A stretch of 64,000 bases of DNA from Agrococcus sediminis (GTDB taxonomy: Bacteria > Actinomycetota > Actinomycetes > Actinomycetales > Microbacteriaceae): contig NZ_VOIR01000012.1 in the NCBI RefSeq assembly GCF_007923295.1, forward strand, positions 124,001-188,000, read 5' to 3'. The stretch's first letter is position 1. Each line of letters opens with the position of its first letter. Below, in pieces: positions 5,541 through 45,292 of this stretch. The position numbers and the translations under genes are program-made. The notes under the pieces are model-generated. The model ran no database searches. It worked only from the letters and a program-made list of their open reading frames with translations, and was not told the DNA's origin.

Positions 5541-8500
5541 CTACGCGAAGTCGCGCGACCGCGGGCTCGGCACATCGAAGCGGTCGAGCCGATCGGCCAG
5601 CACCGCGATGACGCCCTCCGGTGTGCGCTGCAGCATGCCGCGCACGACGAGCGCGGGCGAGTGTCGCGCCACCTGCCGCGAGTGCGCCCACAGGCCCTTC
5701 GAGACGATCACGTTGAGCATGCCCGTCTCGTCCTCCAGGTTCATGAAGGTGACGCCCTGCGCCGTGCGCGGCCGCTGGCGGTGCGTGACGATGCCGGCCG
5801 CCTGCACCCGCCTGCCCGGCTCCGCCTCGGCGAGCGACGCGATCGGCAGCACCCCGCGCGCCTCGAGCATCGCCCGCGCGTGCCGCACCGGGTGGTCGTC
5901 GGTGGCGACGCCCGTCGACCAGACGTCGAGCGCCACCTGCTCCTCGGCCGACAGCAGCGGCAGCAGCGGCACCTCGAGCGTCACCTGCGTGCCCTCGAGC
6001 TGATCCTCGCGCTCCGTCGACGCCGGGCCCGCGAGCCACAGCCCCTCGCGGCGTCCGACCCCCAGCCCCTCGAGGGCACCGGCGGTCGCGAGCGCCTCGA
6101 GCTCGCCGCGGTCGAGCGACGCGCGCCGGGCGAGGTCGTGGATGCCCTCGAGCGGACGCTCCTCGCGCGCCGCCACGATGCGCTCGGCGGCGGCGCGGCC
6201 GACGCCCGCGACGCTCGACAGGCCCATGCGCACGGCCAGGCCCGCGTCGCGCCGGTGCCGCTCGCGCATCCGCCTCGACTCGGTCGCCGCGGGCGGCACC
6301 GGCGGCTGCTCGCGCGCGAGGCACGCGTCGTCGCCCGGGCGGCGCTCGCCGTGCGGCTCGAGGCCCGCGTCGACGCCCGAGCGCACCGCATCCGGCCGCA
6401 GCGTCTCGACGCCGTGCCGCGCGGCGTCGGCGACGAGCGACGCCGACGACCAGAAGCCCATCGGCTGGCTGCGCAGCAGCCCCGCGAGGAACGCTGCCGG
6501 GTAGTGCAGCTTCAGCCACGACGACGCGTAGACGAGCTTCGCGAACGCGAGCGAGTGCGACTCGGCGAAGCCGAAGCCCGCGAACGCCTCGATCTTGCGG
6601 TAGATCGTCTCGCCCACCTCCTGCGAGATGCCGTTCGCGGCCATGCCCTCGAACAGCTTCGCCTTCAGCGCCTCGATCCGCTCGCGCGACCGCTTCGAGC
6701 CGATCGCGCGCCGCAGCTGGTCGGCCTCGCCGGCGTCGAAGCCGCCCACCGCGACCGACATCTGCATGAGCTGCTCCTGGAACAGCGGCACCCCGAGCGT
6801 GCGCTCGAGCACCGGCACCAGCAGCGGGTGCGCGTACGTGATCGGCTCGGCCCCCACCCGCCGGCGCAGGTACGGGTGCACCGCGTCGCCCTGGATGGGG
6901 CCGGGGCGGATGAGCGCGATCTCGACCACCAGGTCGTAGAAGCAGCGCGGCTTCAGGCGAGGGAGGGTGGCCATCTGCGCGCGCGACTCGACCTGGAACA
7001 CGCCCACCGCATCCCCCTCGCAGAGCATGTCGTAGACGCCCGCCTCCTCGGCGGGCATGCTCGCGAGCGACCATGACTCCCCCGTGTGCTCGGCCGCGAG
7101 CGCCAGCGTGTGCGAGAGGGCGCCGAGCATGCCCAGGCCCAGCAGGTCGAACTTCACCAGGCCCATCCACTCGCAGTCGTCCTTGTCCCACTGCAGCACG
7201 GTGCGGTTCGGCATGCGCGCCGGCTCGATCGGGCAGACCGAGCCGACCGGCTCCTCGGTGAGCACCATGCCGCCGGAGTGGATGCCGAGGTGCCGCGGGG
7301 CGTGCAGGAACTCGCCCGCGAGCGACACGACGGGCTCGGGGATGGTGTCGACGTCGACCTTCGAGTACGACTCGACCGACTTCGACCAGGCGTTCTGCTG
7401 GCCGACGGCGTAGCCGAGCGCCTTCGCCGCGTCGCGCACCGCCGACTTCGGCCGGTACGTGATGACGTTGGCGACCTGCGCGGCGTTGCGGCGGCCGTAG
7501 CGCTCGTAGACGTGCTGGATGACCTCCTCGCGGCGGCCGGCGTCGAAGTCGATGTCGATGTCGGGCTCCTCCTCGCGCATCATCGAGATGAAGCGCTCGA
7601 ACGGCAGCCGGTAGCGGATCGGGTCGACGGCGGTGATGCCGAGGATGAAGCAGACGGCGCTCGCGACGGCGCTGCCGCGGCCCTGGCAGAGGATGCCCTG
7701 CGCGTGCGCGAACTCGGCGATCTCGAAGACGATGAGGAAGTAGCCGGCGAAGCCCTTCTGCTCGATGAGGCCCAGCTCGTGCTCGAGCCGGGCGGCGACC
7801 TCGGCGCTCGGGCGCCCGTCGACGGTGTCGTAGACGCGCGGCAGCCGCTCGGCGACGAGCTCGCGCAGCCAGCTCATCGGGGTGTGGTCGCCGGGCGCGT
7901 CGATGACGGGCAGGCGGGGGGATGCGGCGCGCAGGTCGAAGGCGAGGGCCCGGCCGAGCGCGGCCGCGGTGCCGACCGCGCCGGGGAACGCCCGGAAGCG
8001 GCGCGCCATCACGCTGCCGGCGCGCAGCGACGGCACGCCGCCCGCGGGCAGCCACGCGTCGAGCTCGTCGATCGAGCGGCGGGCGCGCACCGCGGCGACG
8101 GCATCGCCGAGCCGCTGCCGGGCGGGGCTCGCGATGTGCGCGTTGGTGGTCGCGACCACGGGCAGGCGGCGCTGCTCGGCGAGCTGCGCGAGCACCCGGT
8201 TGCGCTCGAAGTCGCGGGGGTCGCCGATGTCGCTCAGCTCGACCGCGACCCGGTCCGGGCCGAACAGCGACGTGAGCCGGTCGAGCTCGCGGCCCGCGGC
8301 ATCCGCCCCGTCGGCACCGGCGCCGTGCCGCTCGAGCGCCTGCCGCACGCCGCCCTTGCGGCAGCCCGAGAGGATGAGCCACTCGCCCCGTGCGGTCTCG
8401 GCGAGCCGCTCGAGCTCGAAGATGGGCCTGCCCTTCTCGCCCGGGCCGTGCAGGTCGGTGGCGAGGTAGCCGTCGGTGAGGGCGGTGGCGAGCGCCGTGT

Positions 8501-8936
8501 ACCCGGCCGGACCGGTCGCGAGCGCCACGAGGTGCGAGCCGTCGGGGTCGGGCACGCCCTGCTGCGGCGCCTCGAGGCCGAGCGTGAACTCGGTGCCGAA
8601 GACGGTCGGCAGGCCCGCCTCGGCGGCGGCCTCGGCGAAGCGCACGGCACCGTAGAGGCCGTCGTGGTCGACGAGCGCGAGCGCCTCGAGGCCGAGCCTG
8701 CGCGCCTCGTTCACGAGCTCGGCAGGGCTCGAGGCGCCGTCGAGGAACGAGTAGTGCGAGTGCGCGTGCAGCTCGGCGTACGGGGTCGCGGCGCCGGGCG
8801 CGGGCACGCGGATGCGCTCGCGGCGCGCGTCGTCGAGCTCGGCCGGGTGGGCGACCTTGCCGGCGCCGACGTCGCGGTCGGAGAGGATGCCCTCGAGCTC
8901 GCGCCAGGGCATCGCGGGGTTGTTCCAGCCGGCCAT
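5541..8936 (-). CDS. dnaE2: error-prone DNA polymerase III alpha subunit DnaE2
   Basis: 1131 aa, the usual length for DnaE2 (about 1050-1130), an SOS-induced translesion polymerase acting with ImuA and ImuB. The PHP domain is at the N-terminus (ELHAHSHYSFLDGASSP, LALVDHDGLYG). The catalytic acidic motif PDIDIDFD is in the palm, followed by GRGSAVASAVCFILGIT, a finger region and a helix-hairpin-helix stretch (LSSVAGVGRAAAERIVAAR), then a C-terminal OB fold (GVTFMNLEDETGMLNVIVSK). About 30 residues between the fingers and the HhH are charged and disordered-looking. No LexA box lies directly upstream; transcription probably reads in from imuB, although a strong hairpin lies between the two genes. 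Confidence 0.96.
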   Translation of the reverse strand: MAGWNNPAMPWRELEGILSDRDVGAGKVAHPAELDDARRERIRVPAPGAATPYAELHAHSHYSFLDGASSPAELVNEARRLGLEALALVDHDGLYGAVRFAEAAAEAGLPTVFGTEFTLGLEAPQQGVPDPDGSHLVALATGPAGYTALATALTDGYLATDLHGPGEKGRPIFELERLAETARGEWLILSGCRKGGVRQALERHGAGADGADAAGRELDRLTSLFGPDRVAVELSDIGDPRDFERNRVLAQLAEQRRLPVVATTNAHIASPARQRLGDAVAAVRARRSIDELDAWLPAGGVPSLRAGSVMARRFRAFPGAVGTAAALGRALAFDLRAASPRLPVIDAPGDHTPMSWLRELVAERLPRVYDTVDGRPSAEVAARLEHELGLIEQKGFAGYFLIVFEIAEFAHAQGILCQGRGSAVASAVCFILGITAVDPIRYRLPFERFISMMREEEPDIDIDFDAGRREEVIQHVYERYGRRNAAQVANVITYRPKSAVRDAAKALGYAVGQQNAWSKSVESYSKVDVDTIPEPVVSLAGEFLHAPRHLGIHSGGMVLTEEPVGSVCPIEPARMPNRTVLQWDKDDCEWMGLVKFDLLGLGMLGALSHTLALAAEHTGESWSLASMPAEEAGVYDMLCEGDAVGVFQVESRAQMATLPRLKPRCFYDLVVEIALIRPGPIQGDAVHPYLRRRVGAEPITYAHPLLVPVLERTLGVPLFQEQLMQMSVAVGGFDAGEADQLRRAIGSKRSRERIEALKAKLFEGMAANGISQEVGETIYRKIEAFAGFGFAESHSLAFAKLVYASSWLKLHYPAAFLAGLLRSQPMGFWSSASLVADAARHGVETLRPDAVRSGVDAGLEPHGERRPGDDACLAREQPPVPPAATESRRMRERHRRDAGLAVRMGLSSVAGVGRAAAERIVAAREERPLEGIHDLARRASLDRGELEALATAGALEGLGVGRREGLWLAGPASTEREDQLEGTQVTLEVPLLPLLSAEEQVALDVWSTGVATDDHPVRHARAMLEARGVLPIASLAEAEPGRRVQAAGIVTHRQRPRTAQGVTFMNLEDETGMLNVIVSKGLWAHSRQVARHSPALVVRGMLQRTPEGVIAVLADRLDRFDVPSPRSRDFA

Positions 8937-8959
8937 CGGTCACCTCCCCCGCTCATCCG

Positions 8960-8996
8960 CCGGTCGAGCCGCCCGCGCAGCGGTCGAGTCGAGGCC
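8960..8996. repeat. intergenic palindromic repeat, family A (single copy)
   Basis: A short GGTCGAG...GTCGAG-GCC element between imuB and dnaE2, resembling the cluster at 17570-17895 and the single copies at 40692 and 45342. It looks like a decayed member of a dispersed intergenic repeat. Confidence 0.45.
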
Positions 8997-9035
8997 ACCC
9001 GCCCGGCCCCAGGCGCCGTTCGTCGACCGGCTCCG

Positions 9036-9072
9036 TGTGCGCCCGACCGGATAGTCCGGTCGAGCGCGCACA
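9036..9072. terminator. strong hairpin between imuB and dnaE2
   Basis: TGTGCGC (9036-9042) pairs with GCGCACA (9066-9072), and inside it GACCGGA-TAG-TCCGGTC forms a perfect 7-base stem. It follows the imuB stop on the minus strand and could terminate or attenuate read-through into dnaE2, or stabilise the upstream message. No T-run follows. Confidence 0.5.
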
Positions 9073-9114
9073 GGACCGGTTGACGGACGAGCGCGGCCGG
9101 CCGGCAGCGCGACG

Positions 9115-10671
9115 TCACGCATAGCGGCCCTCCGCGAGCCAGGCGCCGTCGGCCTGCAGCAGCACCCACGCCTCCCCCTCGCCGTCGAGGATCTGCACGC
9201 GGTGCACGACGTCGCCGAGGTCGCGGCGGCGGATGGGCCACGGCCCGGCCCAGGCGACGACGCGGCGGCGGGGCGCGGCGGGCGGGGAGAACGCCGCGGG
9301 CGCCCCCTCGCGCACGTCGAGCGCCGCCGCCTCGACCGGCGCGCCCGCCGCATCGAGCAGCCGCACCGGCAGCGGCGGCCGGAACACGACCGCCGGCCGG
9401 GGCGGCGGCAGCGCGCCGGGCCACGGGCCGGCCGCCTGCGCGGGCGCCGCGTCGCCCCAGGGCGTGAGCACGCCGCGCTCGGCGAGCAGCCGGCCGCCGC
9501 CGGGGGTCGCGGTGAGCACCGCCTCGCGGCCGAGCATGCCCTGCAGCCGCTCGAGCGCGTGCTTCGTGCGGTCGTCGATGTCGCCGCCGCCCCACAGCCC
9601 CGGCATGTGCTCGGCGTCGGCGTCGAGCCGCTCGGGCAGCGCCTGCACCTCGACGAGCGCCGAGCCGAGGTCGCCCTCGGTCAGCTGCCAGCGCATGCGG
9701 TCGACGATGTCGCCCGCGCGCAGGAAGCCGGGCTGCCGCCACAGCCGCTCGCTGACGCGGCCCTCCTCGCCGCGCAGCACGATGCGGATCTCGCTGCACA
9801 CGAGCCGCTGCTCGGCCAGCTGCCGCACGAAGCGCTCGACCGGCTCCCGCACGGCGAGCGCGAGCTCCTGCACGCCCTCGATGCCCGGCTCGAACACGAG
9901 CCGCAGCGCCCGCTCCTCGCCGAGCCCGCTGTCGTCGACGCGGCGGTCGTCGCCGCCGCGGGCGCGGGTGAGAGCGACGAGCCCCGCCTCGCCGAACCGG
10001 TCGCGCACGCTGTCGTCGGGCAGCTGCGCGAAGCCGCCGAGCGTGTGCACGCCGAGCCGGTGCAGCATGCCGGGCAGCTCGTCGTCGCCGAGCACGCCCA
10101 CCGGCAGCGGGCCGAGGAAATCGCGGCTGCGCCCCGCCGGCACGATCGTCTCGCGGCCCAGCTGGGCGGCGAGCTCTGCCGTGAAGCGGTCGTCGGCGAC
10201 GCCGAAGCTCGCCGAGAGCCCGAGCGGGTCGAGTGCGCCGCGCACCGCCTCGAGCGCCCGCGACTCCGAACCGTAGAACCGGCTGGCCCCCCGCATCCGG
10301 AACGCCAGGGCGCCGTCGCCGATCGGCTGGGCCGCCGGCACGACGGCGAGCACCGCGCGCACCACCCGCTCGAACGCGAGCGCCTCGCCCACCGGGTCGG
10401 CGGGGGCGAGCGCGAGCATGGGCGACGCGGCCTGCGCGTCGCGCACCCGCATGCCGACCCGCACGCCGTCGGCGCGGGCCTGCTCGTCGCACGCGACGAG
10501 GCGCAGCGCGTGCACGATCGCGCCGGGCGCGCCCTGCTCGCCGCCGGCGGGCAGCGCGCCCGTCTGGCGCGCGACGACGACCGGCCAGTCGGGCACCCGC
10601 AGCACGCCCACGCGGCCGCCGCCCACCCGCGCGCGGGGCGGGGCGCTGCTGCTGGTCGTCTCGGCTGCCAC
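9115..10671 (-). CDS. imuB: ImuB, Y-family polymerase-like mutasome protein
   Basis: A 518-aa Y-family (UmuC/DinB-fold) protein. The N-terminal segment LRVPDWPVVVARQTG replaces the usual D-x-N-x-F-Y-A catalytic motif, typical of ImuB, which is catalytically dead and bridges DnaE2 and the beta clamp. Palm-finger (RVRDAQAASPML...) and little-finger regions follow, then a Pro/Ala-rich C-terminal tail. The start is the GTG (VAAETTSSS) at 10671. TTGACG (10701-10706) and GATCAT (10677-10682) lie 18 bases apart with a perfect LexA palindrome between them, and the GTG sits 6 bases after the -10, so the message is probably leaderless. The 37 in-frame residues upstream would span the promoter and are rejected. 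Confidence 0.93.
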   Translation of the reverse strand: MAAETTSSSAPPRARVGGGRVGVLRVPDWPVVVARQTGALPAGGEQGAPGAIVHALRLVACDEQARADGVRVGMRVRDAQAASPMLALAPADPVGEALAFERVVRAVLAVVPAAQPIGDGALAFRMRGASRFYGSESRALEAVRGALDPLGLSASFGVADDRFTAELAAQLGRETIVPAGRSRDFLGPLPVGVLGDDELPGMLHRLGVHTLGGFAQLPDDSVRDRFGEAGLVALTRARGGDDRRVDDSGLGEERALRLVFEPGIEGVQELALAVREPVERFVRQLAEQRLVCSEIRIVLRGEEGRVSERLWRQPGFLRAGDIVDRMRWQLTEGDLGSALVEVQALPERLDADAEHMPGLWGGGDIDDRTKHALERLQGMLGREAVLTATPGGGRLLAERGVLTPWGDAAPAQAAGPWPGALPPPRPAVVFRPPLPVRLLDAAGAPVEAAALDVREGAPAAFSPPAAPRRRVVAWAGPWPIRRRDLGDVVHRVQILDGEGEAWVLLQADGAWLAEGRYA

Positions 10672-10676
10672 ACCCC

Positions 10677-10706
10677 ATGATCGAACAGACGTTCGAATGC
10701 CGTCAA
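10677..10706 (-). promoter_or_regulatory. imuB promoter with LexA (SOS) box
   Basis: Minus-strand promoter: -35 TTGACG at 10701-10706, -10 GATCAT at 10677-10682, 18-base spacing. The perfect palindrome TCGAAC-AGAC-GTTCGA (10681-10696) fills the spacer and touches the -10. This matches the actinobacterial/Gram-positive LexA operator, so imuB should be repressed by LexA and induced by DNA damage. Confidence 0.88.
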
Positions 10707-10752
10707 GCGGATGCGGCGTGTCGAGCGGGGCGGTCGGGCCGGGCACGCCGAG

Positions 10753-10782
10753 GTGCGGGACGCGCCGCTGCGCGCCCCGCAC
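10753..10782 (-). terminator. terminator hairpin after the LPXTG repeat protein
   Basis: GTGCGGG-A-CGCGC-cgct-GCGCG-C-CCCGCAC forms a 12-pair stem with one mismatch. It lies just after the stop of the gene at 10795 and upstream of the imuB promoter, insulating imuB from that gene. Confidence 0.7.
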
Positions 10783-10794
10783 CCGGGCCCGGGC

Positions 10795-12612
10795 TCACCG
10801 CATGGAGCGCACGCGGCGGGCGCCGACGAGCACCAGCGCGCCGAGCGCGAGCAGCGCGAGCGCCGGAGCGAGCACGTCGGCGCGCTCGGTGCCGGTGCGC
10901 GGCAGCTCGTCCTCCGAGGCGTCGGCCGAGACCTCGAACGAGGCTCGGTCGACGACCGCACCCGCGGCCGCCCCGACGTCGCCCTCGAAGGCGGCACCGA
11001 CGTCACCGCCGCCGAAGGAGGCACCGACGTCGCCCGAGGCGTCTCCGACCTCGGGCTCGGTGCCGTCCTCACCCGTGCCGGGCTCGATCGGCTCGACCGG
11101 CTCGACCGGCTCGACCGGCTCGACCGGCTCGACCGGGATGACCGGGATGACCGGCTCACCGGGGACGACCGGGACGCCGGGCTCACCCGGCTGGCCCGGC
11201 TCGACCGGGGCGACCGGCGCATCGGGATCGACCGCACCGGTCGTCGAGCCGCTGCTCGACGCATCGCCCGCGAGCGCCACGGCGTTGCCGCCGACCGTCA
11301 CCGGCGCGCTCGGGACGAGCACCACCTGCGAGCCCGACACCAGGCCGTCCTCGCCCGACGTCACCGCGCCATCCGACGAACCCGACGTCGCGGCCGGCGC
11401 CGTCGCGGTCGAGCCGGAGCTCGACGCGTCGCCGAGCACCGCCACGGCGTTGCCGCCGGCGGTCACCGGCGCAGCGACATCCGCGACGACCTGCGAGCCC
11501 GACGCGAGACCGTCGGAGCCCGACGTCACCGCGCCGTCGCCGCTCTGCTCAGCCGAGCCCGAGTCAGAGCCGGCGGTCGAGCCGGAGCTCGACGCGTCGC
11601 CGAGCACCGCCACGGCGTTGCCGCCGGCGGTCACCGGCGCAGCGACATCCGCGACGACCTGCGAGCCCGACACGAGACCGTCCTCGCCCGACGTCACCGC
11701 GCCGTCGCCGCCGCTCTGCGCAGCCGCGCCAGAGCCCGAGCCGGCGGTCGAGCCGGAGCTCGACGCATCGCCCAGCACCGCCACCGCGTTGCCGCCCGCG
11801 GTCACCGGCGCAGCGACATCCGCGACGACCTGCGAGCCCGACACCAGGCCGTCCTCGCCCGACGTCACCGCGTCGTCGCCGCCGCTCTGCGCAGCCGCGC
11901 CAGAGCCCGAGCCGGCGGTCGAGCCGGAGCTCGACGCATCGCCGAGCACCGCCACGGCGTTGCCACCTGCGGTCACCGGCGCAGCCACGTCGCCGACGAC
12001 CTGCGAGCCCGACCCGAGACCGTCGGAGCCCGACGTCACCGCGCCGTCGCTGCCACTGTCGGCAGCGCCGGAGCCCGCCGTCGAGCCGGAGCTCGACGCG
12101 TCGCCCGCGACCGCGACGGCGTTGCCGCCGACGGTCACGGGCGCCGAGGCATCCACGACGCCCTGCGTGCCGCCGAGCACGCTGTCGTCGCCGCTCGTCG
12201 ACGCCGGCTCCTGCGTGCCGGTCGGCGCGGGCTCCACCGTCGAGCCCTGGCTCGACGCGTCGCCGAGCACCCCGACCGCGTTCCCCGCGACCGTGACCGG
12301 CGCGTCGACGGCCAGCACCGCCTGCGTGCCCGAGAGCACGCCGTCGGCGCCGGAGGTGTCGACCGCCGCCGACGGCTGCGCGGTGTCCGCGGTCGAGCCG
12401 GTCGGCGCATCCGTCGACTCTGCGTCGCCGAGCACGCCGACGGCGGTGCCGCCGATCGTGACCGGCGCCTCGACCGCCACCACTGCCTGGCTTCCCGACC
12501 CGACGCCGTCCGAGCCGTCGGTCGTCACTGCACCGGCCACGCCGGTGCCTGCGGCCCAGAGGCCGCCTGCGAGCGCTGTCGTCCACAGCGCCCGTGAGAT
12601 GAGCTTGTTCAT
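10795..12612 (-). CDS. LPXTG-anchored surface protein with eight chaplin-like repeats
   Basis: 605 aa. The start is the ATG with AGAAGGG upstream; residues 1-28 are a signal peptide (MNKLISRALWTTALAGG...GVAGA). Eight repeats of about 50-57 residues follow, with core SGSQVVADVAAPVTAGGNAV and AVLGDASSSGST. This resembles the GNxVxVxG core of chaplins and related actinobacterial surface repeats, but there is no cysteine. A PVE/PGEP-rich wall-spanning region follows, then LPRTG (570-574), a hydrophobic helix and an RRVRSMR tail, so it is a sortase substrate. It is probably a hydrophobic coat or adhesin-like wall protein; function is unproven. It lies between imuA and imuB with its own terminator. 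Confidence 0.85.
   Translation of the reverse strand: MNKLISRALWTTALAGGLWAAGTGVAGAVTTDGSDGVGSGSQAVVAVEAPVTIGGTAVGVLGDAESTDAPTGSTADTAQPSAAVDTSGADGVLSGTQAVLAVDAPVTVAGNAVGVLGDASSQGSTVEPAPTGTQEPASTSGDDSVLGGTQGVVDASAPVTVGGNAVAVAGDASSSGSTAGSGAADSGSDGAVTSGSDGLGSGSQVVGDVAAPVTAGGNAVAVLGDASSSGSTAGSGSGAAAQSGGDDAVTSGEDGLVSGSQVVADVAAPVTAGGNAVAVLGDASSSGSTAGSGSGAAAQSGGDGAVTSGEDGLVSGSQVVADVAAPVTAGGNAVAVLGDASSSGSTAGSDSGSAEQSGDGAVTSGSDGLASGSQVVADVAAPVTAGGNAVAVLGDASSSGSTATAPAATSGSSDGAVTSGEDGLVSGSQVVLVPSAPVTVGGNAVALAGDASSSGSTTGAVDPDAPVAPVEPGQPGEPGVPVVPGEPVIPVIPVEPVEPVEPVEPVEPIEPGTGEDGTEPEVGDASGDVGASFGGGDVGAAFEGDVGAAAGAVVDRASFEVSADASEDELPRTGTERADVLAPALALLALGALVLVGARRVRSMR
11092..11150. repeat. 9-base tandem repeat encoding Pro-Val-Glu units
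   Basis: Tandem GGCTCGACC units (plus strand), with diverged GGGATGACC units at the end, encode the PVEPVE...PVIP wall-spanning stretch of the LPXTG protein. Simple repeats of this kind commonly change length between strains. Confidence 0.75.
11280..12150. repeat. tandem ~170-bp coding repeats
   Basis: At least four consecutive units of about 165-171 bases are nearly identical at DNA level (each carries GCCACGGCGTTGCCGCCGGC or a close variant and the GGTCACCGGCGCAGCGACAT segment). They encode repeats 4-7 of the LPXTG protein; the outer repeats are more diverged, suggesting recent duplication in the centre. Confidence 0.8.
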
Positions 12613-12647
12613 CGCTCTGCCCTTCTGATTGAAGTGATCCGTACTGG

Positions 12648-12691
12648 CCGTCCCGCTCCGGGACGGCTGCGTGCCGTGCTCAGGGCACGGC
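12648..12691 (-). terminator. tandem hairpins between the two secreted-protein genes
   Basis: CCGTCCC-GCTCC-GGGACGG (12648-12666) and GCCGTGC-TCAGG-GCACGGC (12673-12691) are two perfect 7-base stems in the gap between the genes at 12702 and 12612. They probably terminate the upstream gene, or structure the leader of the downstream one. Confidence 0.6.
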
Positions 12692-12701
12692 GTCGGATCG
12701 C

Positions 12702-13658
12702 TCAATCAGGGCGTGCGGTGCGCTCCTCCGCGAGGGAGACGGGAAGGCGGTCGTGCTCGACCGCCGTGAGGCGTCCGCCCGTCGGCGCGGGCTGGACATC
12801 GGCATGCAGGATGGCCGCCGGCGACGGCGACGCGCCCGCGGCCGGCGCGCTCGCGCCTGCGGGCGCCACCGCGATCGGGGCGGGCTGCGGCAGCAGCGGG
12901 TCGGCGGCGCCCGCCTCGTGCTGCGTGCTCAGGGTCACCGGGCTGACGCGCTGCGCCGCACCCGGCAGGGCTGCGGATGCGTCGTCGGCGTCCGCGCGCA
13001 CGTCGCCGTCGGCGCGCACGGCGGGATCGCCGCCCGGCGCGACGGCCGCGGGAGGCTCCTCGGCTGCGGGCGGGAGCTCGGGCAGCACCTCGGGGTCTCG
13101 CGGCTCGACCGCGCCCTCGACGACCGGCTCGATCACCGGCTCGATGCTCTCCCCGACCGACGCGACGCTCTCGCGCACGGGGTCGAGCACCGGGTCGACC
13201 ACGGCATCGACCACCGGGTCGACCACCGGCTCCACGACGTCCTCGACGAGCGGCGCCACCACGGCCTCCAGCGCAGGCGTGACCACGACGTCCACGACCG
13301 TCTCCGCCACGGGCGCGACCGGCTCCACGAGCTGCTCGGCGATCGGCGCCACCACCGGCACGACCGGCTCGACCGCCGTCTCGACGACCTCGGCCACCGG
13401 CGGCAGCGCGGCCTCGAGCTCGGCGGCGACCTCGTCCATGGGGTCGGACACGATCTCGACCGCCTCGCCTGCCGCGCTGCCGACGTCCTCGAGCAGCCCG
13501 CTGATCGCGCCGCGCGCATCGTCGGCGTCGGCGTCGGCGGCAGCAGCACCGGGAGCGCCGAGGAGGAGCGAGAGGGCGACCGCGCCGAGCGATGCCGCTC
13601 CCGCTGCGAGGCCGAGGCGCAGCGCGCGGGATGGGATCCCTGCGCCGCTGGCCGTCAT
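12702..13658 (-). CDS. secreted Val/Glu/Pro-repeat protein, unknown function
   Basis: 318 aa, starting at an ATG after GGAGG. The N-terminus has an RxxRLGL positively charged segment and a hydrophobic core ending GAPGAAAADA, so it is exported. Residues ~60-180 are degenerate VVEPVV/VVDPVVDAV repeats likely to form an extended or amphipathic rod. The C-terminal half is Ala/Pro/Asp-rich and disordered-looking, without LPXTG or a membrane anchor. No domain is recognised. Its position just upstream of the LPXTG repeat protein suggests a joint role at the cell surface. Confidence 0.75.
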   Translation of the reverse strand: MTASGAGIPSRALRLGLAAGAASLGAVALSLLLGAPGAAAADADADDARGAISGLLEDVGSAAGEAVEIVSDPMDEVAAELEAALPPVAEVVETAVEPVVPVVAPIAEQLVEPVAPVAETVVDVVVTPALEAVVAPLVEDVVEPVVDPVVDAVVDPVLDPVRESVASVGESIEPVIEPVVEGAVEPRDPEVLPELPPAAEEPPAAVAPGGDPAVRADGDVRADADDASAALPGAAQRVSPVTLSTQHEAGAADPLLPQPAPIAVAPAGASAPAAGASPSPAAILHADVQPAPTGGRLTAVEHDRLPVSLAEERTARPD

Positions 13659-13746
13659 GGCTGCCTCCGAAGTCGTGACCTTCTGGGCTCTGTCCGCGCC
13701 ACGGTACGCCGCCGCCGGGCGACGGGCAACGAATCCCAGCAGAGTC

Positions 13747-14478
13747 TCAGGCTGCGGGCTGATGCTCCGCGAGCGCCGATCCCAGGGCGAGGCCGGGCTC
13801 GGGCGCGAGCTCCGGCGCGAGCTCGGGCCCCGCTGGCCCGCCGCCGATGGGGATGCGCGCGAGCCGCGGCGCTCCGCCCGACGACGCCTCGACGAGCAGG
13901 CTGCCCCCGGCGATCCGGCCGTCGCCGTCGGCGAGCCCCTCCCACTCGGCGCGCAACGACCGCACGACGGTCGCGGCGTTCGGCCACGGGCCGGCGACCA
14001 GCAGCGTCGAGGACGCCTGGCGCAGCCGCGCCGCGATGCGCGCCGCGTCGGTGTGGGTCACGCGGCCGGGCGAGGCGGCGAGCACGACCGGCATCGCCTC
14101 GGCGAGGCTCGCGACCACGTCGAGCCAGGCGCGGCCCGGATGCGGCACGAGCGCGATGCGCTCGATCGGCACACCCAGGTCGCGGGCGGCCTCGACGCCC
14201 AGGTCGGGCATCCCCACGATCGCGCCCCACGCGCCGGCCGGCATCGCCGCGCCCAGGCAGGCGAGGGCGAGGCTGCGCGACTCGATGCTGTGCGCGGCGC
14301 CGGGCCGGAGCGCGCGCACGACCTCCGCGAGCCCCACCGCGGCCGGCTCGACCGGGGCGGGCTCGACCTGCAGGGAGCCCGCCTGCTGCATGCCGCGCAG
14401 CCGCTCGCGCAGCGCCTCGACCGTCGCCGTGCGGTCCTCCCCCGTGCGGCGCTCGAGCCTCGTCGATGCCATCCCCAT
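13747..14478 (-). CDS. imuA: ImuA, RecA-like mutasome protein
   Basis: About 243 aa, a short RecA-fold relative (ImuA). After an Arg-rich head (TRLERRTGEDRTATVEALRE) come a hydrophobic strand ALACLGAAMPAGAWGAIVGM, which corresponds to the RecA core but lacks a classical Walker A, then IERIALVPHPGRAW and STLLVAGPWPNAATVVRSL. ImuA partners ImuB and DnaE2 in translesion synthesis. Two in-frame ATGs compete. The one at 14478 is 6 bases after a -10 and suits a leaderless message; the one at 14472 has GGAGGG 6 bases upstream. The SOS promoter and the mutasome genes downstream support the call despite low conservation of the family. Confidence 0.82.
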   Translation of the reverse strand: MGMASTRLERRTGEDRTATVEALRERLRGMQQAGSLQVEPAPVEPAAVGLAEVVRALRPGAAHSIESRSLALACLGAAMPAGAWGAIVGMPDLGVEAARDLGVPIERIALVPHPGRAWLDVVASLAEAMPVVLAASPGRVTHTDAARIAARLRQASSTLLVAGPWPNAATVVRSLRAEWEGLADGDGRIAGGSLLVEASSGGAPRLARIPIGGGPAGPELAPELAPEPGLALGSALAEHQPAA

Positions 14479-14484
14479 CCCTCC

Positions 14485-14513
14485 ATTCTCGAACACACGT
14501 TCGAACGGGTCAA
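14485..14513 (-). promoter_or_regulatory. imuA promoter with LexA (SOS) box
   Basis: Minus-strand -35 TTGACC (14508-14513) and -10 GAGAAT (14485-14490) with 17-base spacing. The perfect palindrome TCGAAC-ACAC-GTTCGA (14489-14504) lies in the spacer. The layout is the same as at imuB. Confidence 0.88.
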
Positions 14514-14598
14514 CCGGCGGCGGCGTGTCGACGACCGGCCCGCGTGGGATGATCGAGCCACCCCGCCCGAGCGGGGACGACCGCGACGAGGAGGCCAG

Positions 14599-15567
14599 AT
14601 GGCGACCGACGCCGATGCCCGAAGCGTCGCACCGACCGCTGACTCGGCCACTCGCGGCCCGATCCTCTGCGTCACCACCAACCCCGCGATCGACATCACG
14701 TACACGATCGACGAGCTGCGACCGGGCGTCAGCCACCGCGTGCCCACGGGCCTCGCCCGCGCCGGCGGCAAGGGCGTCAACGTCGCGCGCGTGCTGCACC
14801 AGCAGCACGAGGACGCCATGGTCATCGCCCCGATCGGCGGCCCGGTGCAGGCGATCTTCGTGCACGACCTCGACCGCTCGGGCATCCGCCACCGGCTCGT
14901 CGAGGTCGACGCGCCCACCCGCCGCACCACCGCGATCGTCACGCCCGCCGGCACCACCAACCTCAACGAGACGGGCGAAGCGGTCGACGCGCGCGGCTGG
15001 GAGCAGCTGCTCGACATCCTGCGCGAGGAGGCGCCCGGCGCCCGCGCGATCGCCTCCTCGGGCTCGCTGCCGCCCGAGACGCCCGCGCACCTGTGCGCCA
15101 GCATCGTCGAGATCGCCGTCGCTGCCGGCACGCCCGTGATCGTCGACGTCGGCGGCGAGCAGCTGCGCCACGCGGTCGCCGCGGGCGCCACGGCCGTCAA
15201 GCCCAACCGGCACGAGCTCTTCGACGCCATGGGCGGCGCCGACCCGCTCGATGCCGCCCGCAGGCTCGCCGCCCTCGGCACCGGCACCGTCTTCGCGTCG
15301 CTCGACGTCGAGGGGATGCTCGCGGTGCTGCCCGACGGACGGGCCTGGCACGCGCGCATCCACCAGGTGCTCGACGGCAACCCGACCGGCGCGGGCGACG
15401 CCGCCGTCGCCGCGCTCGCGCAGGCGATCCCCGAGGGCGCGACCCTCGAGGAGCAGCTAGCGCGGGCCACCGCGTGGTCGGCCGCGGCCGTGCTGGCGGC
15501 CCAGGCGGGCACGATCGCCGACCCGCGCGAGCTCGCTCGGCACATCCGCATCACGCCCATCGGCTGA
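14599..15567 (+). CDS. PfkB-family hexose kinase (1-phosphofructokinase-like)
   Basis: 322 aa. The ATG follows GAGGAGG by 4 bases; the long open frame upstream is antisense to imuA and is not coding. The N-terminal TTNPAIDITYTID and AGGKGVNVARVL motifs are those of the FruK/PfkB/LacC subfamily. The ATP/anion-hole motif is NPTGAGDAAVAAL, with D as catalytic base. The enzyme phosphorylates a sugar phosphate, most likely fructose 1-phosphate or tagatose 6-phosphate. There is no adjacent PTS or fruR gene, so the exact substrate stays open. Confidence 0.88.
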   Translation: MATDADARSVAPTADSATRGPILCVTTNPAIDITYTIDELRPGVSHRVPTGLARAGGKGVNVARVLHQQHEDAMVIAPIGGPVQAIFVHDLDRSGIRHRLVEVDAPTRRTTAIVTPAGTTNLNETGEAVDARGWEQLLDILREEAPGARAIASSGSLPPETPAHLCASIVEIAVAAGTPVIVDVGGEQLRHAVAAGATAVKPNRHELFDAMGGADPLDAARRLAALGTGTVFASLDVEGMLAVLPDGRAWHARIHQVLDGNPTGAGDAAVAALAQAIPEGATLEEQLARATAWSAAAVLAAQAGTIADPRELARHIRITPIG

Positions 15568-16101: not shown

Positions 16102-17559
16102 GTGCCAGCGAGTCGCACCGCGCGCCGCCTGACGGCAGCCGTCGCCACCGCCGCCGTCCTCGCCGTCGCCGGCTGCGCATCCGCCGCCCCCGAGCGCCGC
16201 GACACGGGGCTCGCGATGTTCCAGTGGACGTGGGACGCGATCGCCGCCGAGTGCCCCGCGCTCGGCGAGGCGGGCGTCGCCTGGGTGCTGACGTCGCCGC
16301 CGCAGGAGCACGTCGACGGCGCGACCGCCGGCCTCGCGGGCGCCGACGGCTCCGAGTGGTGGTGGTCGTACCAGCCGGTCTCGTACGCCGTCGAGTCGCG
16401 GCTCGGCACGCGCGAGGAGTTCGCCGCGATGACCGCCGCCTGCGCCGAAGCGGGCGTCGACGTCTACGCGGATGCGGTGGTCAACCACATGGCGGGCGTC
16501 GAGTCGGGCACGGGCTGGGCGGGCACCGACTTCACCCACTACGCGTATCCCGGGCTCTACGCGCCCGACGACTTCCACGACTGCGACCGCACGCCCGACG
16601 ACGACATCGACGCGTACCGCGAGCCGTTCGTGATCCAGCACTGCGAGCTCGAGAACCTCGCCGACCTCGCGACCGAGTCCGAGCGGGTGCGCGCGACCAT
16701 CGGCGCCTACCTCGACGACCTGCTCGCGCTCGGCGTGGCGGGCTTCCGCATCGACGCGGCGAAGCACATCGACCCCGACGACGTCGCCGCGATCGTGGCG
16801 GCGCTCCCCGAGGGCACGCCCGTCATCAGCGAGGTGATCCGCGGCACGGGCGAGCCGGTGCAGCCCGAGCAGTACACGGCCTCCTCGACCGTGTGGGAGT
16901 TCGGATGGGCCGACCGGGTCGGCGCGTTCGTGCGCTCGGGCGCCGCGCGGGCGCTCGCCGACCTCTCCCCCGAGGCGTACGGGCTGCTCGACGAGCAGGC
17001 GCGCACCTTCGTCGCGAACCACGACACCGAGCGCAACGGCTCGACGCTCGCCTACCGCGACGGCGGCGCGTTCGCCGCGGCGACCGCGGTGATGCTCGCG
17101 AGCGACTACGGGCCGCCGACGCTCTACTCGGGCTACGCCTTCAGCGACCGCGACGCGGGGCCCGCGCTCGAGGCCGACGGCTCGGTGACGGATGCGTCGT
17201 GCACGGGCGACGAGACCGCCGACACCGAGTGGGCCGACGGCGCGTGGGTGTGCCAGCACCGCTGGCCCGGCACGCTGGAGCTCGTCGCGTGGCGCACGCG
17301 GGTCGTGGATGCGCCGGTGACAGCGACCGAGCCCATGGGCAGCGTGCTGGCGCAGCTGCGCGGCGAGACCGGGGCGTTCGCCGTGCAGCTCGACGACGGG
17401 CCGACGACCGTCGAGGTGCCGGTCGAGCTGCCCGACGGCCGCTACTGCGACGTCGTGGTGCCCGACTGCGCATCCGTCGTCGAGGTCGTCGACGGTGTCG
17501 CAGCCCTCGAGCTGGGCCCGTGGCAGGCGGTCGCGCTCGACCGCTTCAGCCGGCCGTAA
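16102..17559 (+). CDS. alpha-amylase family (GH13) lipoprotein
   Basis: 485 aa starting at GTG. Residues 1-25 form a lipoprotein signal with lipobox LAVAGC, so the enzyme is likely membrane-tethered outside the cell. GH13 signatures are DVYADAVVNHMAG (region I), GFRIDAAKH (nucleophile D), VISEVI (acid/base E) and FVANHDTE (region IV). Hydrolysis of alpha-1,4-glucan is expected. A C-terminal beta-sandwich domain (all-beta, ending LGPWQAVALDRF) closes the protein. The start lies 28 bases after the GNAT gene on the same strand, so the two could be co-transcribed. Confidence 0.92.
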   Translation: MPASRTARRLTAAVATAAVLAVAGCASAAPERRDTGLAMFQWTWDAIAAECPALGEAGVAWVLTSPPQEHVDGATAGLAGADGSEWWWSYQPVSYAVESRLGTREEFAAMTAACAEAGVDVYADAVVNHMAGVESGTGWAGTDFTHYAYPGLYAPDDFHDCDRTPDDDIDAYREPFVIQHCELENLADLATESERVRATIGAYLDDLLALGVAGFRIDAAKHIDPDDVAAIVAALPEGTPVISEVIRGTGEPVQPEQYTASSTVWEFGWADRVGAFVRSGAARALADLSPEAYGLLDEQARTFVANHDTERNGSTLAYRDGGAFAAATAVMLASDYGPPTLYSGYAFSDRDAGPALEADGSVTDASCTGDETADTEWADGAWVCQHRWPGTLELVAWRTRVVDAPVTATEPMGSVLAQLRGETGAFAVQLDDGPTTVEVPVELPDGRYCDVVVPDCASVVEVVDGVAALELGPWQAVALDRFSRP

Positions 17560-17569
17560 CCCTCGGGCC

Positions 17570-17895
17570 GCCGCTGGTCGAGGAGCCGGCGGCCGCCCTC
17601 TCCGCTGGTCGAGGAGCCCGCGGCCGCCCCCTCCGCTGGTCGAGGAGCCCGCGGCCGCCCCTCCGCTGGTCGAGGAGCCCGCGGCCGCAGGCCGCGGGCG
17701 TCTCGAGACCACCCCGCGTCCGCCCCTCCGCTGGTCGAGGAGTCCGCGGCCGCAGGCCGCGGGCGTCTCGAGACCACCCCACATCGTGCAGCAACGGGGT
17801 GGTCTCGACTCGCCGGCCTCCGGCCGGCGGCTCGACCGGCGACGGGGGCGGGGTGGTCTCGACTCGCCGGCCTCCGGCCGGCGGCTCGACCAGCT
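17570..17895. repeat. cluster of intergenic palindromic repeats, family A
   Basis: This stretch holds no gene. It contains about seven whole or half copies of an element whose full form runs from GGTCGAGGAGCCCGCGGCCG through CAGGCCGCGGGCG to TCTCGAGACC, itself an inverted repeat. Four to five copies face one way and two (GGTCTCGACTCGCCGGCCTC...GGCTCGACC) carry a different stem. Each copy can fold into a long hairpin, so the cluster can also end transcription of the amylase and the convergent ABC operon. Single relatives occur at 8960, 40692 and 45342. Confidence 0.85.
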
Positions 17896-17901
17896 GGGGG
17901 G

Positions 17902-19710
17902 CTAGACGAGCGACTCCCGCCACGCTCGGTGCAGCGACGCGAACTTGCCGCCCGCCTCGATCAGCTCGTCGGGCGAGCCGTCCTCGATGATGCGGCCGTG
18001 CTCCATGACGAGCACCCGGTCGGCGATCGCGACCGTCGACAGGCGGTGCGCGATGATGATCGCCGTGCGGTCGGCGAGCAGGGTCGTGAGGCCCTCCTGC
18101 ACGAGCCGCTCCGAGGGGATGTCGAGCGAGGCGGTCGCCTCGTCGAGGATGAGCACCCGCGGGTCGGCGAGGAACGCGCGCGCGAACGACAGCAGCTGCC
18201 GCTGCCCCGCGCTCACGCGCCCGCCGCGCTTGTTGACGTCGGTGTCGTAGCCGTCGGGCAGCGCCTCGATGAACTCGTGCGCGCCCACCGCGCGGGCGGC
18301 CGCCTCGATCTCGTCGTCGCTCGCGCCGGGCTTGCCGAGCGCGATGTTGTCGGCGACGGTGCCCGAGAACAGGTACGCCTCCTGCGTGACCATCACGACC
18401 GCGCGCCGCAGGTCGTCGTTCGACAGCTGGCGCAGGTCGACGCCGTCGAGCTTGACGCTGCCCGCCGTCGGGTCGTAGAACCGCGAGACGAGCTTCGCGA
18501 GCGTCGACTTGCCGGCGCCGGTGGTGCCGACGAGCGCGATCGTCTGGCCGGACGGGATGTGCAGGTCGAAGTCGGGCAGCACGACCTTGCCGCTGCCGTA
18601 CGAGAACTCGACGCGGTCGAAGTCGATCTGGCCGCGCGAGGCGGGCAGCGCCTGCGCGGCGACCGGCTCCTTGACCGTCGGCTCCTCCTCGAGCACGCCC
18701 GAGATCTTCTCGAGCGCGGCCGAGGCCGACTGGTAGCCGTTGAAGAACATGCCGATGCCCTGGATGGGCTGGAAGAAGTTGCGGGCGTAGAGCGCGATCG
18801 CGAGCAGCGCGCCGATCTGCAGCGACCCATCCACGACCCGCAGGCCGCCGACGAGCACGAGCGTCGCGACCGTGATCGCGCCGATCGCCATGATGCCCGG
18901 CTCGTAGATGCCGAAGATGTTGATGGTGCGGAAGTTCGCGTCGCGGTAGTCGTCGACTCGCTCGTCGAAGTCGCGCTGGTTGGCGGGCTCCTTGCGGAAC
19001 GCCTTCACGGCGCGGATGCCGGTCATCGTCTCGACGAAGTGCACGATCATGCGCGCGCTCGTCGTGCGCGTCTCGCGGAACAGCACCGTCGAGCGCACCT
19101 GGAACCAGCGCGTGAGGATGATCGCCGGGATGAGCGCGATGCCGATGATGAGGCCCGACAGCGGGTCGAGGATCGCCATCGCGATGCCCGTGAACGACAT
19201 GAACAGCACGCCGCGCACGAGCTCGTTGAGGCCCTGGTCGAGCAGGTCGCGGATCGACTCCAGGTCGCTCGTCTGGCGCGCGATGATGCGGCCCGACGTG
19301 TAGGACTCGTGGAACTCGAGGCTCAGGCGCTGCGCGTGGTCGAAGAGCCGGCGGCGCAGCTCGAACAGCACCGTCTGGCTGATGCGCGCGATGCTCACCG
19401 TGTAGACGTACATGAGCACGCCGCCGAGGATCGCCGCGACGATGTAGGCGAGCGTCGCCGCCCACAGCGGCATCCAGTCGGCGCGCTCGACGATCGCCGG
19501 CAGGCCGTGGTCGATGCCGTACGCGATGAGCATGGGCCCGGCGATGTTCGCGGCGACCGCGATCACCACCAGGATCATCGTCACGACGACGCGGCCGATG
19601 TGCGGCCGCAGCAGCGCGCCGAGCAGCTTCCGCGAGCGCGCTCGGATGGCCTTCGACTCGGCCTTCGTGTAGTCGGTGCGGTCCTCGCCCGCGACGCCCT
19701 GGACGGTCAT
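17902..19710 (-). CDS. heterodimeric ABC exporter subunit with consensus Walker B
   Basis: 602 aa: an exporter-type membrane domain (six spans, about residues 35-320) fused to an ATPase. Walker A is GTTGAGKST, the Q-loop is VTQEAYLF, Walker B is [12 protein letters not shown] with the catalytic Glu, and the H-loop is IIIAHRLST. The signature loop is the non-standard [10 protein letters not shown]. It overlaps the next subunit by 4 bases (ATGA). Together they match BmrCD/TM287-288-type multidrug or lipid exporters, where the atypical signature of one chain meets the degenerate Walker B of the other to form an inactive ATP site. Confidence 0.93.
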
Positions 19711-44326: not shown

Positions 44327-45292
44327 TTGGCAGGCAACCCGGCGTTCCGCAACTCGCCCGCGTTCACCGAGAACACCCAGCGCGCCGCGCAGGCTGCTCC
44401 CGGTGGCCAGCAGGCGCCCTACGGCCAGCAGCAGTACGGCCAGCAGCCCTTCGGTCAGCAGCAGTACGGCCAGCAGCCCTACGGGCAGCCGATGCAGTAC
44501 GGCCAGGCCCCTTACGGCCAGCCCTCGCCCGACCAGCTCGACCAGCAGTTCAACCGGCCGGCGGCGTCGCCGCTCGAGACCGAGCGGCTGACCTACGAGG
44601 GCGTCATCACGAAGACCGTGGTCACGCTCGGCGTCACCGCGCTCGGCTTCATCGTGACGCTCGGCATGCTGCTGATGACGGGCACCTCGCTGCCCTTCTA
44701 CGTGCTCACGTACGGCGGCGCGCTCGTCGGCTTCGTGCTGGCGCTCGTCAACATCTTCAAGAAGGAGCCGAGCCCGGCGCTCGTGCTCGCCTACGCCGGC
44801 GCCCAGGGCCTCTTCCTCGGCGGCTTCTCGGGCCTGCTCGAGTTCGGCATGGGCCTCGACGGCATCATCTTCCAGGCGCTGCTCGCGACCGCCTGCGTGA
44901 TCGCCGCGACGCTCGCGCTCTACGCGTTCCGCATCGTGCGCACGTCGCCGCGGATGAACAAGATCTTCTTCATCGTGCTGATCGGCTACGGCCTGTTCTC
45001 GCTGGTCAACTTCGGCATGATGCTCTTCGGCGCCACGGGCGACCTCGCCTTCGGCATGCGCTCGGCGCCGAGCCCGATCTTCGGCATCCCGTGGGGCGTG
45101 CTGCTCGGCGGCCTCGCGGTGCTGCTGGGCGCCTACTCGCTCGTCATGGACTTCGAGGGCATCGAGCTGGGCGTGAAGCGCGGCGTGCACAAGAAGTACG
45201 GCTGGTCGGCGGCGTTCGGCCTGACGATGACGATCATCTGGCTCTACGTCGAGATCCTGCGCATCATCGCGATCCTCCGCGGCAACAACTAG
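44327..45292 (+). CDS. Bax inhibitor-1/YccA family membrane protein
   Basis: 321 aa starting at TTG with AACAGGAG ahead. Residues 20-70 are Gln/Tyr/Gly/Pro-rich repeats (APYGQQQYGQQPFGQ), a disordered cytosolic arm common in actinobacterial members. Seven hydrophobic spans follow, with GGALVGFVLALVNIFKK, LFLGGFSGLLEFG and a final MDFEGIELGVKRGVHKKYGW loop. Such proteins act as Ca2+-leak channels or affect membrane proteostasis in other organisms; here the role is unknown. Confidence 0.88.
   Translation: MAGNPAFRNSPAFTENTQRAAQAAPGGQQAPYGQQQYGQQPFGQQQYGQQPYGQPMQYGQAPYGQPSPDQLDQQFNRPAASPLETERLTYEGVITKTVVTLGVTALGFIVTLGMLLMTGTSLPFYVLTYGGALVGFVLALVNIFKKEPSPALVLAYAGAQGLFLGGFSGLLEFGMGLDGIIFQALLATACVIAATLALYAFRIVRTSPRMNKIFFIVLIGYGLFSLVNFGMMLFGATGDLAFGMRSAPSPIFGIPWGVLLGGLAVLLGAYSLVMDFEGIELGVKRGVHKKYGWSAAFGLTMTIIWLYVEILRIIAILRGNN

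Follow-up and report, generated by a model that had tools for sequence, protein, structure and literature searches.

Chaplins are known from textbooks for their part in the aerial growth of Streptomyces, and the long chaplins of that genus carry the sorting motif LAXTG, at which they are anchored by class E sortases. We describe here a gene pair with a chaplin-derived array protein from Agrococcus sediminis, which belongs to a non-filamentous genus of the Microbacteriaceae (Micrococcales), a mostly non-filamentous family. The pair lies in a stretch of 64,000 nucleotides (nt), called the window below and used for all coordinates, and consists of the genes for an array protein, P0001, and for its upstream partner, P0002.

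The chaplin domain has been described with three GN motifs and two cysteines (Cys) (PMC13251363, PMC7766987; these and all other papers, identified by their PubMed Central (PMC) numbers, are cited from excerpts). The long chaplins ChpA-C share with P0001 tandem chaplin modules and the SG...PV...GN core in register, and their signal peptide and C-terminal sorting signal have putative counterparts in it, but they have two domains with Cys pairs (PMC13251363, PMC7766987), whereas P0001 has eight domains without Cys and with one GN motif left of three, LPRTG as sorting motif and an added partner gene. Cys-free chaplin domains are already known in Streptomyces from the short chaplin ChpE and the C-terminal domain of ChpB (PMC7766987, PMC13251363, PMC3079736); ChpE is, however, a single free domain and the ChpB domain one of two, while every domain of the P0001 array is Cys-free and the array carries a sorting signal. 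Chaplin fibrils form in vitro without Cys, and the disulphides have been proposed to form nuclei (PMC3079736). Outside Streptomyces, the non-sporulating rod-coccus Arthrobacter chlorophenolicus resembles Agrococcus in having chaplin-like genes, for which attachment was suggested as a function, maybe one older than aerial growth (PMC4255298). CwpA and CwpB of Actinoplanes missouriensis are sortase-anchored, affect morphology and have been compared with long chaplins, but differ from P0001 in that their authors, in the excerpt cited, conclude that they have no chaplin domain (PMC13251363). We found no open-licence PMC paper linking chaplins with Agrococcus, with Cys in Microbacteriaceae, with non-filamentous actinobacteria or with Arthrobacter domain repeats, and a single paper of that literature, on Streptomyces, names PF03777.

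On balance, we favour the view that P0001 and its partner are a conserved surface-protein pair, in which the array stems from sortase-anchored long chaplins and would be displayed as a beta coat or fibre. From its N-terminus P0001 reads as a signal-like stretch, eight repeats of 41 amino acids (aa) each that recur every 53-57 aa, followed by a Pro/Val/Glu stalk and a sorting signal (bp, base pairs; TRF, Tandem Repeats Finder):

10795-12612, minus strand: chaplin-array protein P0001, 605 aa (PF03777, E 3.1e-10)
12529-12612, minus strand: signal-peptide-like region, aa 1-28, MNKLISRALWTTALAGGLWAAGTGVAGA (by eye; N-terminus conserved in 8 congener sequences)
12400-12522, minus strand: chaplin repeat 1, aa 31-71, GT instead of GN (repeat profile)
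12235-12357, minus strand: chaplin repeat 2, aa 86-126 (repeat profile)
12076-12198, minus strand: chaplin repeat 3, aa 139-179 (repeat profile)
11914-12036, minus strand: chaplin repeat 4, aa 193-233 (recently expanded block)
11743-11865, minus strand: chaplin repeat 5, aa 250-290 (recently expanded block)
11572-11694, minus strand: chaplin repeat 6, aa 307-347 (recently expanded block)
11404-11526, minus strand: chaplin repeat 7, aa 363-403 (recently expanded block)
11239-11361, minus strand: chaplin repeat 8, aa 418-458 (repeat profile)
11077-11217, minus strand: Pro/Val/Glu stalk, aa 466-512, 9-bp DNA repeat (TRF 11081-11218)
10798-10905, minus strand: sorting signal, LPRTG (10891-10905), hydrophobic stretch, basic end (Gram_pos_anchor and TIGR01167 just under cut-off)

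The ATG at 12612 is the likely start, preferred over a longer reading from a TTG at 12705 because the signal-like stretch comes next; this stretch was recognised by eye from an n-region with Lys/Arg, a hydrophobic core and AGA, which recur in 8 congener sequences. There is no Cys among the 605 residues and hence in none of the eight repeats. The coordinates, both open reading frames (ORFs), the eight repeats and the lack of Cys had all been given in a first-pass annotation and were borne out by the repeat profile and the translation. Its GNAVAVLGD-type core was assigned to all eight repeats; the middle GN is kept in seven of them, and one has GT. The central repeats, noted there as near-identical in DNA, are indeed so: TRF finds the 171-bp tandem array in the gene, and repeats 4-7 share 89-96% DNA identity over 123 nt, compared with 59-80% for repeat pairs involving an outer repeat, which supports a recent expansion of the centre of the array.

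The suspected chaplin relationship also stands. Against PF03777 (ChpA-C) the protein scores 40.2 bits (cut-off 21, E 3.1e-10), with six stretches at E up to 10 and one single repeat over the cut-off alone (23.8 bits), and by this score it is assigned to the family; a lack of profile similarity to chaplins, named in the first-pass annotation as a result that would refute the relationship, is thereby not borne out. A second profile, built from 51 Cys-bearing Streptomyces-type chaplin domains, aligned all eight repeats ungapped and in register; it gave 64.8 bits for P0001, 0.4 for the reversed protein and 6.0 for the best of 500 shuffles, and P0001 was its sole match at E up to 10 among six-frame ORFs of at least 40 aa in the window. 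The repeats retain SG or GG, PV, the middle GN and a V.VLG-type core, and in our reading the modules keep the strand-turn-strand centre SG..........PV....GN.V.VLGD. Gly or Ala occupies the first chaplin Cys position, the second has no Cys, and in place of the third GN there is an SSSGS-type or similar sequence. The grand average of hydropathy (GRAVY) of the repeats has a mean of 0.41, versus 0.52 in the 51 Streptomyces-type domains, and their 29-aa core reaches 0.78. Because P0001 scores as a PF03777 member and yet misses the published hallmarks of three GN motifs and two Cys per domain, we term it chaplin-derived.

P0001 matches 17 of the 24 genomes of the genus at E <= 1e-5, several of them through the N-terminus or the Pro-rich stalk only. 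An alignment-based contig search returned eight loci (seven Agrococcus, one Schumannella), P0001 alone as query returned none, and the only plasmid match (34%) was to a Nonomuraea record. In the family sample of 199 genomes from 85 genera, PF03777 is over its cut-off in 45 genomes of 25 genera, and a three-repeat model, A1, matches 58 genomes of 30 genera at E <= 1e-10. We read 55 array loci, one per genome, 13 of them from the genus, including the window, and 42 from other genera (L and G numbers denote loci and genomes). The genus loci carry arrays of 4-27 repeats, the one with four being cut at a contig end; complete genes have 6 to 27. The longest (L038, 6579-11738, 1719 aa) has 27 chaplin-like repeats whose cores contain aromatic residues (AWNFSGNAISVFGDA), and a Cys-rich stretch precedes its anchor. 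In G021 the same array ORF occurs twice on one contig in opposite orientation (L009, L025); that assembly is flagged as 8% contaminated and the duplication is uncertain. Genera differ little in the core (across three repeats of 21 sequences, 14 columns are invariant and 15 nearly so), and the linkers vary.

Among the 437 repeats of the 55 loci, 426 have no Cys, nine have two and two have one, and 46 of the 55 proteins lack Cys in every repeat. This count includes repeat 9 of L033 (two Cys, at a contig end and probably an artefact); it leaves aside the second piece of L039 (G020), a locus that an assembly gap divides; this piece holds two repeats, of which the last has two Cys. The eight credible two-Cys repeats are the last of their array or, in L112, the last two. 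In five congeners (L028, L030, L031, L032, L037) the last, membrane-proximal repeat has exactly two Cys, and P0001, L029, L034 and L036 have none in any repeat; the first Cys lies one place past chaplin Cys1 in four (e.g. PVNVSCNAIGLIGDASSSDC) and exactly at the Cys1 position in L037 (PVGLCGTAV..ADC). These last repeats tie the array to a Cys-bearing chaplin ancestor. The missing Cys had been taken as special to this protein; that idea is rejected, as it is the norm among the family members read and is known from ChpE and the C-terminal domain of ChpB.

A further 17 loci from the order and the family were followed, of which L184, L186 and L187 have no credible array. The ten from other families of the order gave seven credible arrays, six of them Cys-free; L182, with Cys in 6 of 9 repeats, is a possible intermediate between Cys-bearing and Cys-free arrays. 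At the level of the class, PF03777 matches 67 of 296 genomes. Ten of these were followed, and the eight that gave a usable array (all except L208 and L209) keep Cys in 35 of 37 repeats (4/4, 4/4, 7/8, 5/6, 4/4, 3/3, 4/4 and 4/4), although the profiles used include one from Cys-bearing domains and may favour such repeats. Head-to-tail joining alone thus does not remove the need for Cys, and Cys loss as a simple result of many repeats is not supported, since these arrays of 3-8 repeats retain it. As judged from sequence, multi-repeat chaplins occur widely, and in this sample it is the window's order that is marked by a wholesale loss of Cys.

The second protein of the pair, P0002 (318 aa), is encoded 89 bp upstream of the array gene on the same strand. 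It has a signal-like N-terminus and a Val/Pro/Glu rod, and no anchor was seen in it; the confidence values below and later are the predicted local distance difference test (pLDDT) and the predicted template modelling score (pTM) from AlphaFold2 (AF2):

12702-13658, minus strand: partner P0002, 318 aa (ORF and tail motif)
13539-13658, minus strand: signal-like region of the partner, aa 1-40 (by eye; N-terminus conserved in an 11-row alignment)
13098-13403, minus strand: Val/Glu/Pro rod of the partner, aa 86-187 (largely helical in the AF2 model, pLDDT about 55-75)
12705-12755, minus strand: conserved partner tail, HDRLPVSLAEERTARPD-stop (tail model E 2.7e-5 in its own genome, this tail being one row of the model)

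That this Val/Pro/Glu-rich neighbour is paired with the array, as proposed in the first-pass annotation, is supported by the wider comparison. Directly upstream of 52 of the 55 array genes, at a gap of 67-324 bp, lies an ORF of at least 200 aa that ends in a tail of roughly DDxLPxSPxxxxDxSPD-stop. This motif is rare (58 of 1864 ORFs of at least 200 aa with a stop, in 60 stretches scanned), and the Pro at -13 is invariant in the 52 tails, though the search pattern permitted other places. The three loci without the pattern are L038, where the partner tail has diverged and ends in AHPN, L106 (short ORF, weak tail match) and L118 (DFDITPD end). P0002 itself matches 13 of the 24 genus genomes at E <= 0.001, and in 11 congener partners the N-terminus and the tail align and the middle varies in length. 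A tailed partner is also found in 7 of 7 further loci of the family and beside six of the seven credible arrays from other families of the order, L189 being the one without. In the class-level set, the ORFs upstream of L202 and L203 end in DDPSFSPD, and no tailed upstream ORF was found by the pattern for the other six arrays; near 27 Streptomyces-type loci (about 1.5 kilobases (kb) each side) one ORF fits the pattern, without the rest of the tail. Judging from these sequences, the Val/Glu/Pro protein is a true partner, and the pairing is conserved across the family.

The tail may also be used as the starting point. A model of 23 positions, made from partners beside known arrays, matches 44 of the 199 family genomes at E <= 1e-3, and arrays were found by A1 in 41 of these 44 versus 17 of the other 155, the 17 being arrays without a tail match at that threshold (Fisher p 3e-25, a partly circular comparison because the model derives from array partners). 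Twelve of the tail-bearing genomes lie outside the model and have no PF03777 match at E <= 0.001, some being congeners of model genomes. All 12 have a repeat protein with a signal-like start downstream of the tailed ORF. In nine it is a directly adjoining chaplin array of 5-11 repeats (repeat profile E 9.2e-49 or better); in three (L222, L223, L229) it is another acidic repeat protein, with a sorting signal in L223 and L229, L222 running off its stretch. Tail matches of similar strength outside this set are G014 (known beforehand), G204 (C-terminus not reached) and G032 (internal stop).

Such other acidic repeats (e.g. GDGVLSGAEAVVDADAVVDLGDGVA) also replace the chaplin repeats in G003, G010 and G014 (L040, 6855-8864; L041, 6439-8475; L121, 6676-8004), at the same location and with a signal and an LPXTG of the same kind. 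The swapped arrays, including the three found through the tail, consist of acidic Asp/Val/Gly repeats of the VDADVVVDLGD and VVDPLLGD types, occur with the partner tail, and in some cases keep Cys pairs about 11-12 residues apart.

Of the 42 proteins from other genera, 36 have LAXTG, the sorting motif of the long chaplins, and two LPXTG, with none seen in four; among the 13 genus proteins ten have LPXTG, and none was seen in three, at contig ends or a gap. P0001 ends in LPRTG, a hydrophobic stretch and basic residues, and of the four sortase genes in its genome two were classified, one of them as class E (222.8 bits vs 160). To this extent the LPXTG anchor of the first-pass annotation holds; the generic anchor models fall slightly below their cut-offs (Gram_pos_anchor 14.5 vs 20, TIGR01167 14.0 vs 15.9).

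In the mechanism that we propose, P0001 would be exported by its signal peptide and then joined to the wall by a sortase at LPRTG. The Pro/Val/Glu stalk would hold the eight chaplin-derived beta modules outward, spaced by flexible Gly/Ser/Ala/Asp linkers, and modules of the same chain and of neighbouring chains could line up by their edges to form a surface-active coat or fibre, rich in beta structure, with a role in adhesion or cell-cell contact. Head-to-tail joining and fixing to the wall would here replace the disulphide-linked nuclei proposed for the free Streptomyces chaplins. The partner is predicted to be secreted and unanchored, and its Val/Pro rod and C-terminal tail would most likely dock on the array or on the export or wall machinery. 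It may help the array to assemble or polymerise together with it, and would then be comparable in role to the rodlins RdlA and RdlB, which work with chaplins in the rodlet layer (PMC7766987), though not itself a rodlin. This likeness is one of role and a guess; neither P0002 nor any of six partners from other loci scores above cut-off with a family of Pfam or NCBIfam, which sets the partner apart from rodlins by library search and not by direct comparison with a rodlin sequence. More tentatively, we suggest a two-component, Cys-free chaplin system of the Micrococcales, in which an anchored array has an obligate secreted partner whose last 17 residues (DDxLPxSPxxxxDxSPD-stop) could be a docking or delivery tag, read by the array or by the export or anchoring machinery and also serving the swapped-repeat arrays.

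Several results count against a beta coat descended from long chaplins. With a GRAVY of 0.18 the mature P0001 shows only mild hydrophobicity, and its 69 Asp/Glu against one Lys/Arg make it very acidic; only one of the three chaplin GN motifs is left, the first being a G without N in 8 of 8 repeats. Its LPRTG differs from LAXTG, with two of the four sortases classified, and the class-level relatives described above retain their Cys. A PF03777 search of its own genome at E up to 10 found no short chaplin, although a short Cys-free one might score too low; of the seven matches five lie in the P0001 gene, and the two elsewhere are below cut-off (12.4 and 13.1 bits). Structure prediction had been recommended with beta stacking in mind. 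In the AF2 model of three repeats, strands appear at equivalent positions of every repeat, but at low confidence, and a model with pLDDT 45 and pTM 0.30 is too weak for beta stacking to be read from it. The P0002 model has a helix in the signal region, further helices spanning aa 48-183 (pLDDT about 55-80) and disorder in the remainder (mean pLDDT 56.5, pTM 0.31). Searches of solved structures returned three weak unrelated matches for P0001 and none for a Streptomyces-type domain.

Some of these features would also fit a different reading, in which the chaplin ancestry is real and the assembly function lost: the array would then act as a stalk or spacer, flexible and acidic, whose repeats set length or repel and whose length varies by slippage. 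The wide range of repeat number in complete genus genes, the loss of Cys and of two GN motifs, the low hydropathy and high acidity with two-thirds of residues Gly, Ala, Val or Ser, and the low-confidence fold all agree with it, as does the exchange for acidic Asp/Val/Gly repeats in some congeners and other genera, in which the signal and, if visible, the anchor are of the same kind. The core is, however, strongly conserved between genera while the linkers vary, and its hydrophobicity would be needless in a mere spacer, and we regard such a spacer as rather unlikely. Convergence of low-complexity sequence, without common descent from chaplins, is highly improbable. The Gly/Ala/Ser/Val-rich composition and the weak scores of single repeats (4.4-17.8 bits with the Streptomyces-type profile) would allow for it, but composition as the cause of the match is ruled out by the 500 shuffles and the reversed protein, and the register of all eight repeats and the intermediates with Cys in the last repeat, or in most repeats as in L182, are likewise at odds with it.

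The genomic setting raises a further alternative. In Agrococcus the pair sits inside or beside an SOS mutasome locus, which it interrupts in the window (5541-14504), giving the one-strand order imuA'-partner-array-imuB-dnaE2. The flanking features, which are not part of the pair, are:

13747-14478, minus strand: ImuA', start by eye (NF058630, 133.8 bits vs 65)
9115-10671, minus strand: ImuB-like Y-family polymerase, start by eye (PF00817, 31.8 bits vs 23.2)
5541-8936, minus strand: error-prone polymerase DnaE2 (NF004225, 1352.6 bits vs 939)
14489-14504, no strand: LexA-type box before imuA' (perfect palindrome)
10681-10696, no strand: LexA-type box before imuB (perfect palindrome)

Counted on both strands, the two boxes make four matches of the LexA-type pattern, against 0.18 expected by chance. 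A scan of 10500-14700 found only two sigma-70-like sites, both overlapping the boxes; neither the partner gene nor the array gene has one in front of it, and terminator-like sites were not found. In 13 genus loci checked, all ten with the pair between imuA' and imuB have two boxes, and all three with adjacent imuA'-imuB have one. The pair could accordingly be read through from the LexA-controlled imuA' promoter, and the surface would then change upon DNA damage. Against this, three congeners have the pair upstream of imuA' and not within the SOS unit, and the pair may have its own promoter of a type outside the coverage of the scan. Moreover, no imu genes were found in the stretches read (12 kb or less per locus) at the 42 other-genus array loci, in two of which a single LexA-type box lies about 4-5 kb away from the array. 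A general link of the pair to the SOS mutasome is rejected outside the genus on this ground, and an SOS-controlled coat, which would be specific to the genus, seems quite unlikely to us.

Two repeat clusters elsewhere in the window may be mentioned. Positions 17571-17890, between the ORFs at 16102-17559 and 17902-19710, hold GC-rich repeats of about 27-65 bp (CTGGTCGAGGAGCCCGCGGCCGC type) that resemble intergenic repeats, and 44405-44522 holds a 15-bp repeat (TACGGCCAGCAGCAG), one frame of which would encode Tyr-Gly-Gln-Gln-Gln runs.

The family, in which 58 of the 199 genomes sampled (30 of 85 genera) have long Cys-free arrays that carry sorting signals, offers a test case for the role of chaplins without aerial hyphae, and also for whether the chaplin disulphide serves nucleation. 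Of the new elements, we value most the conserved partner, together with the tail at its end; it matches no family in Pfam or NCBIfam. The tail is also a concrete handle, having predicted arrays in genomes missed by the Pfam model. If the two-component system is true, it would be an undescribed way to build a bacterial surface coat, present in about 30 genera of a one-family sample.

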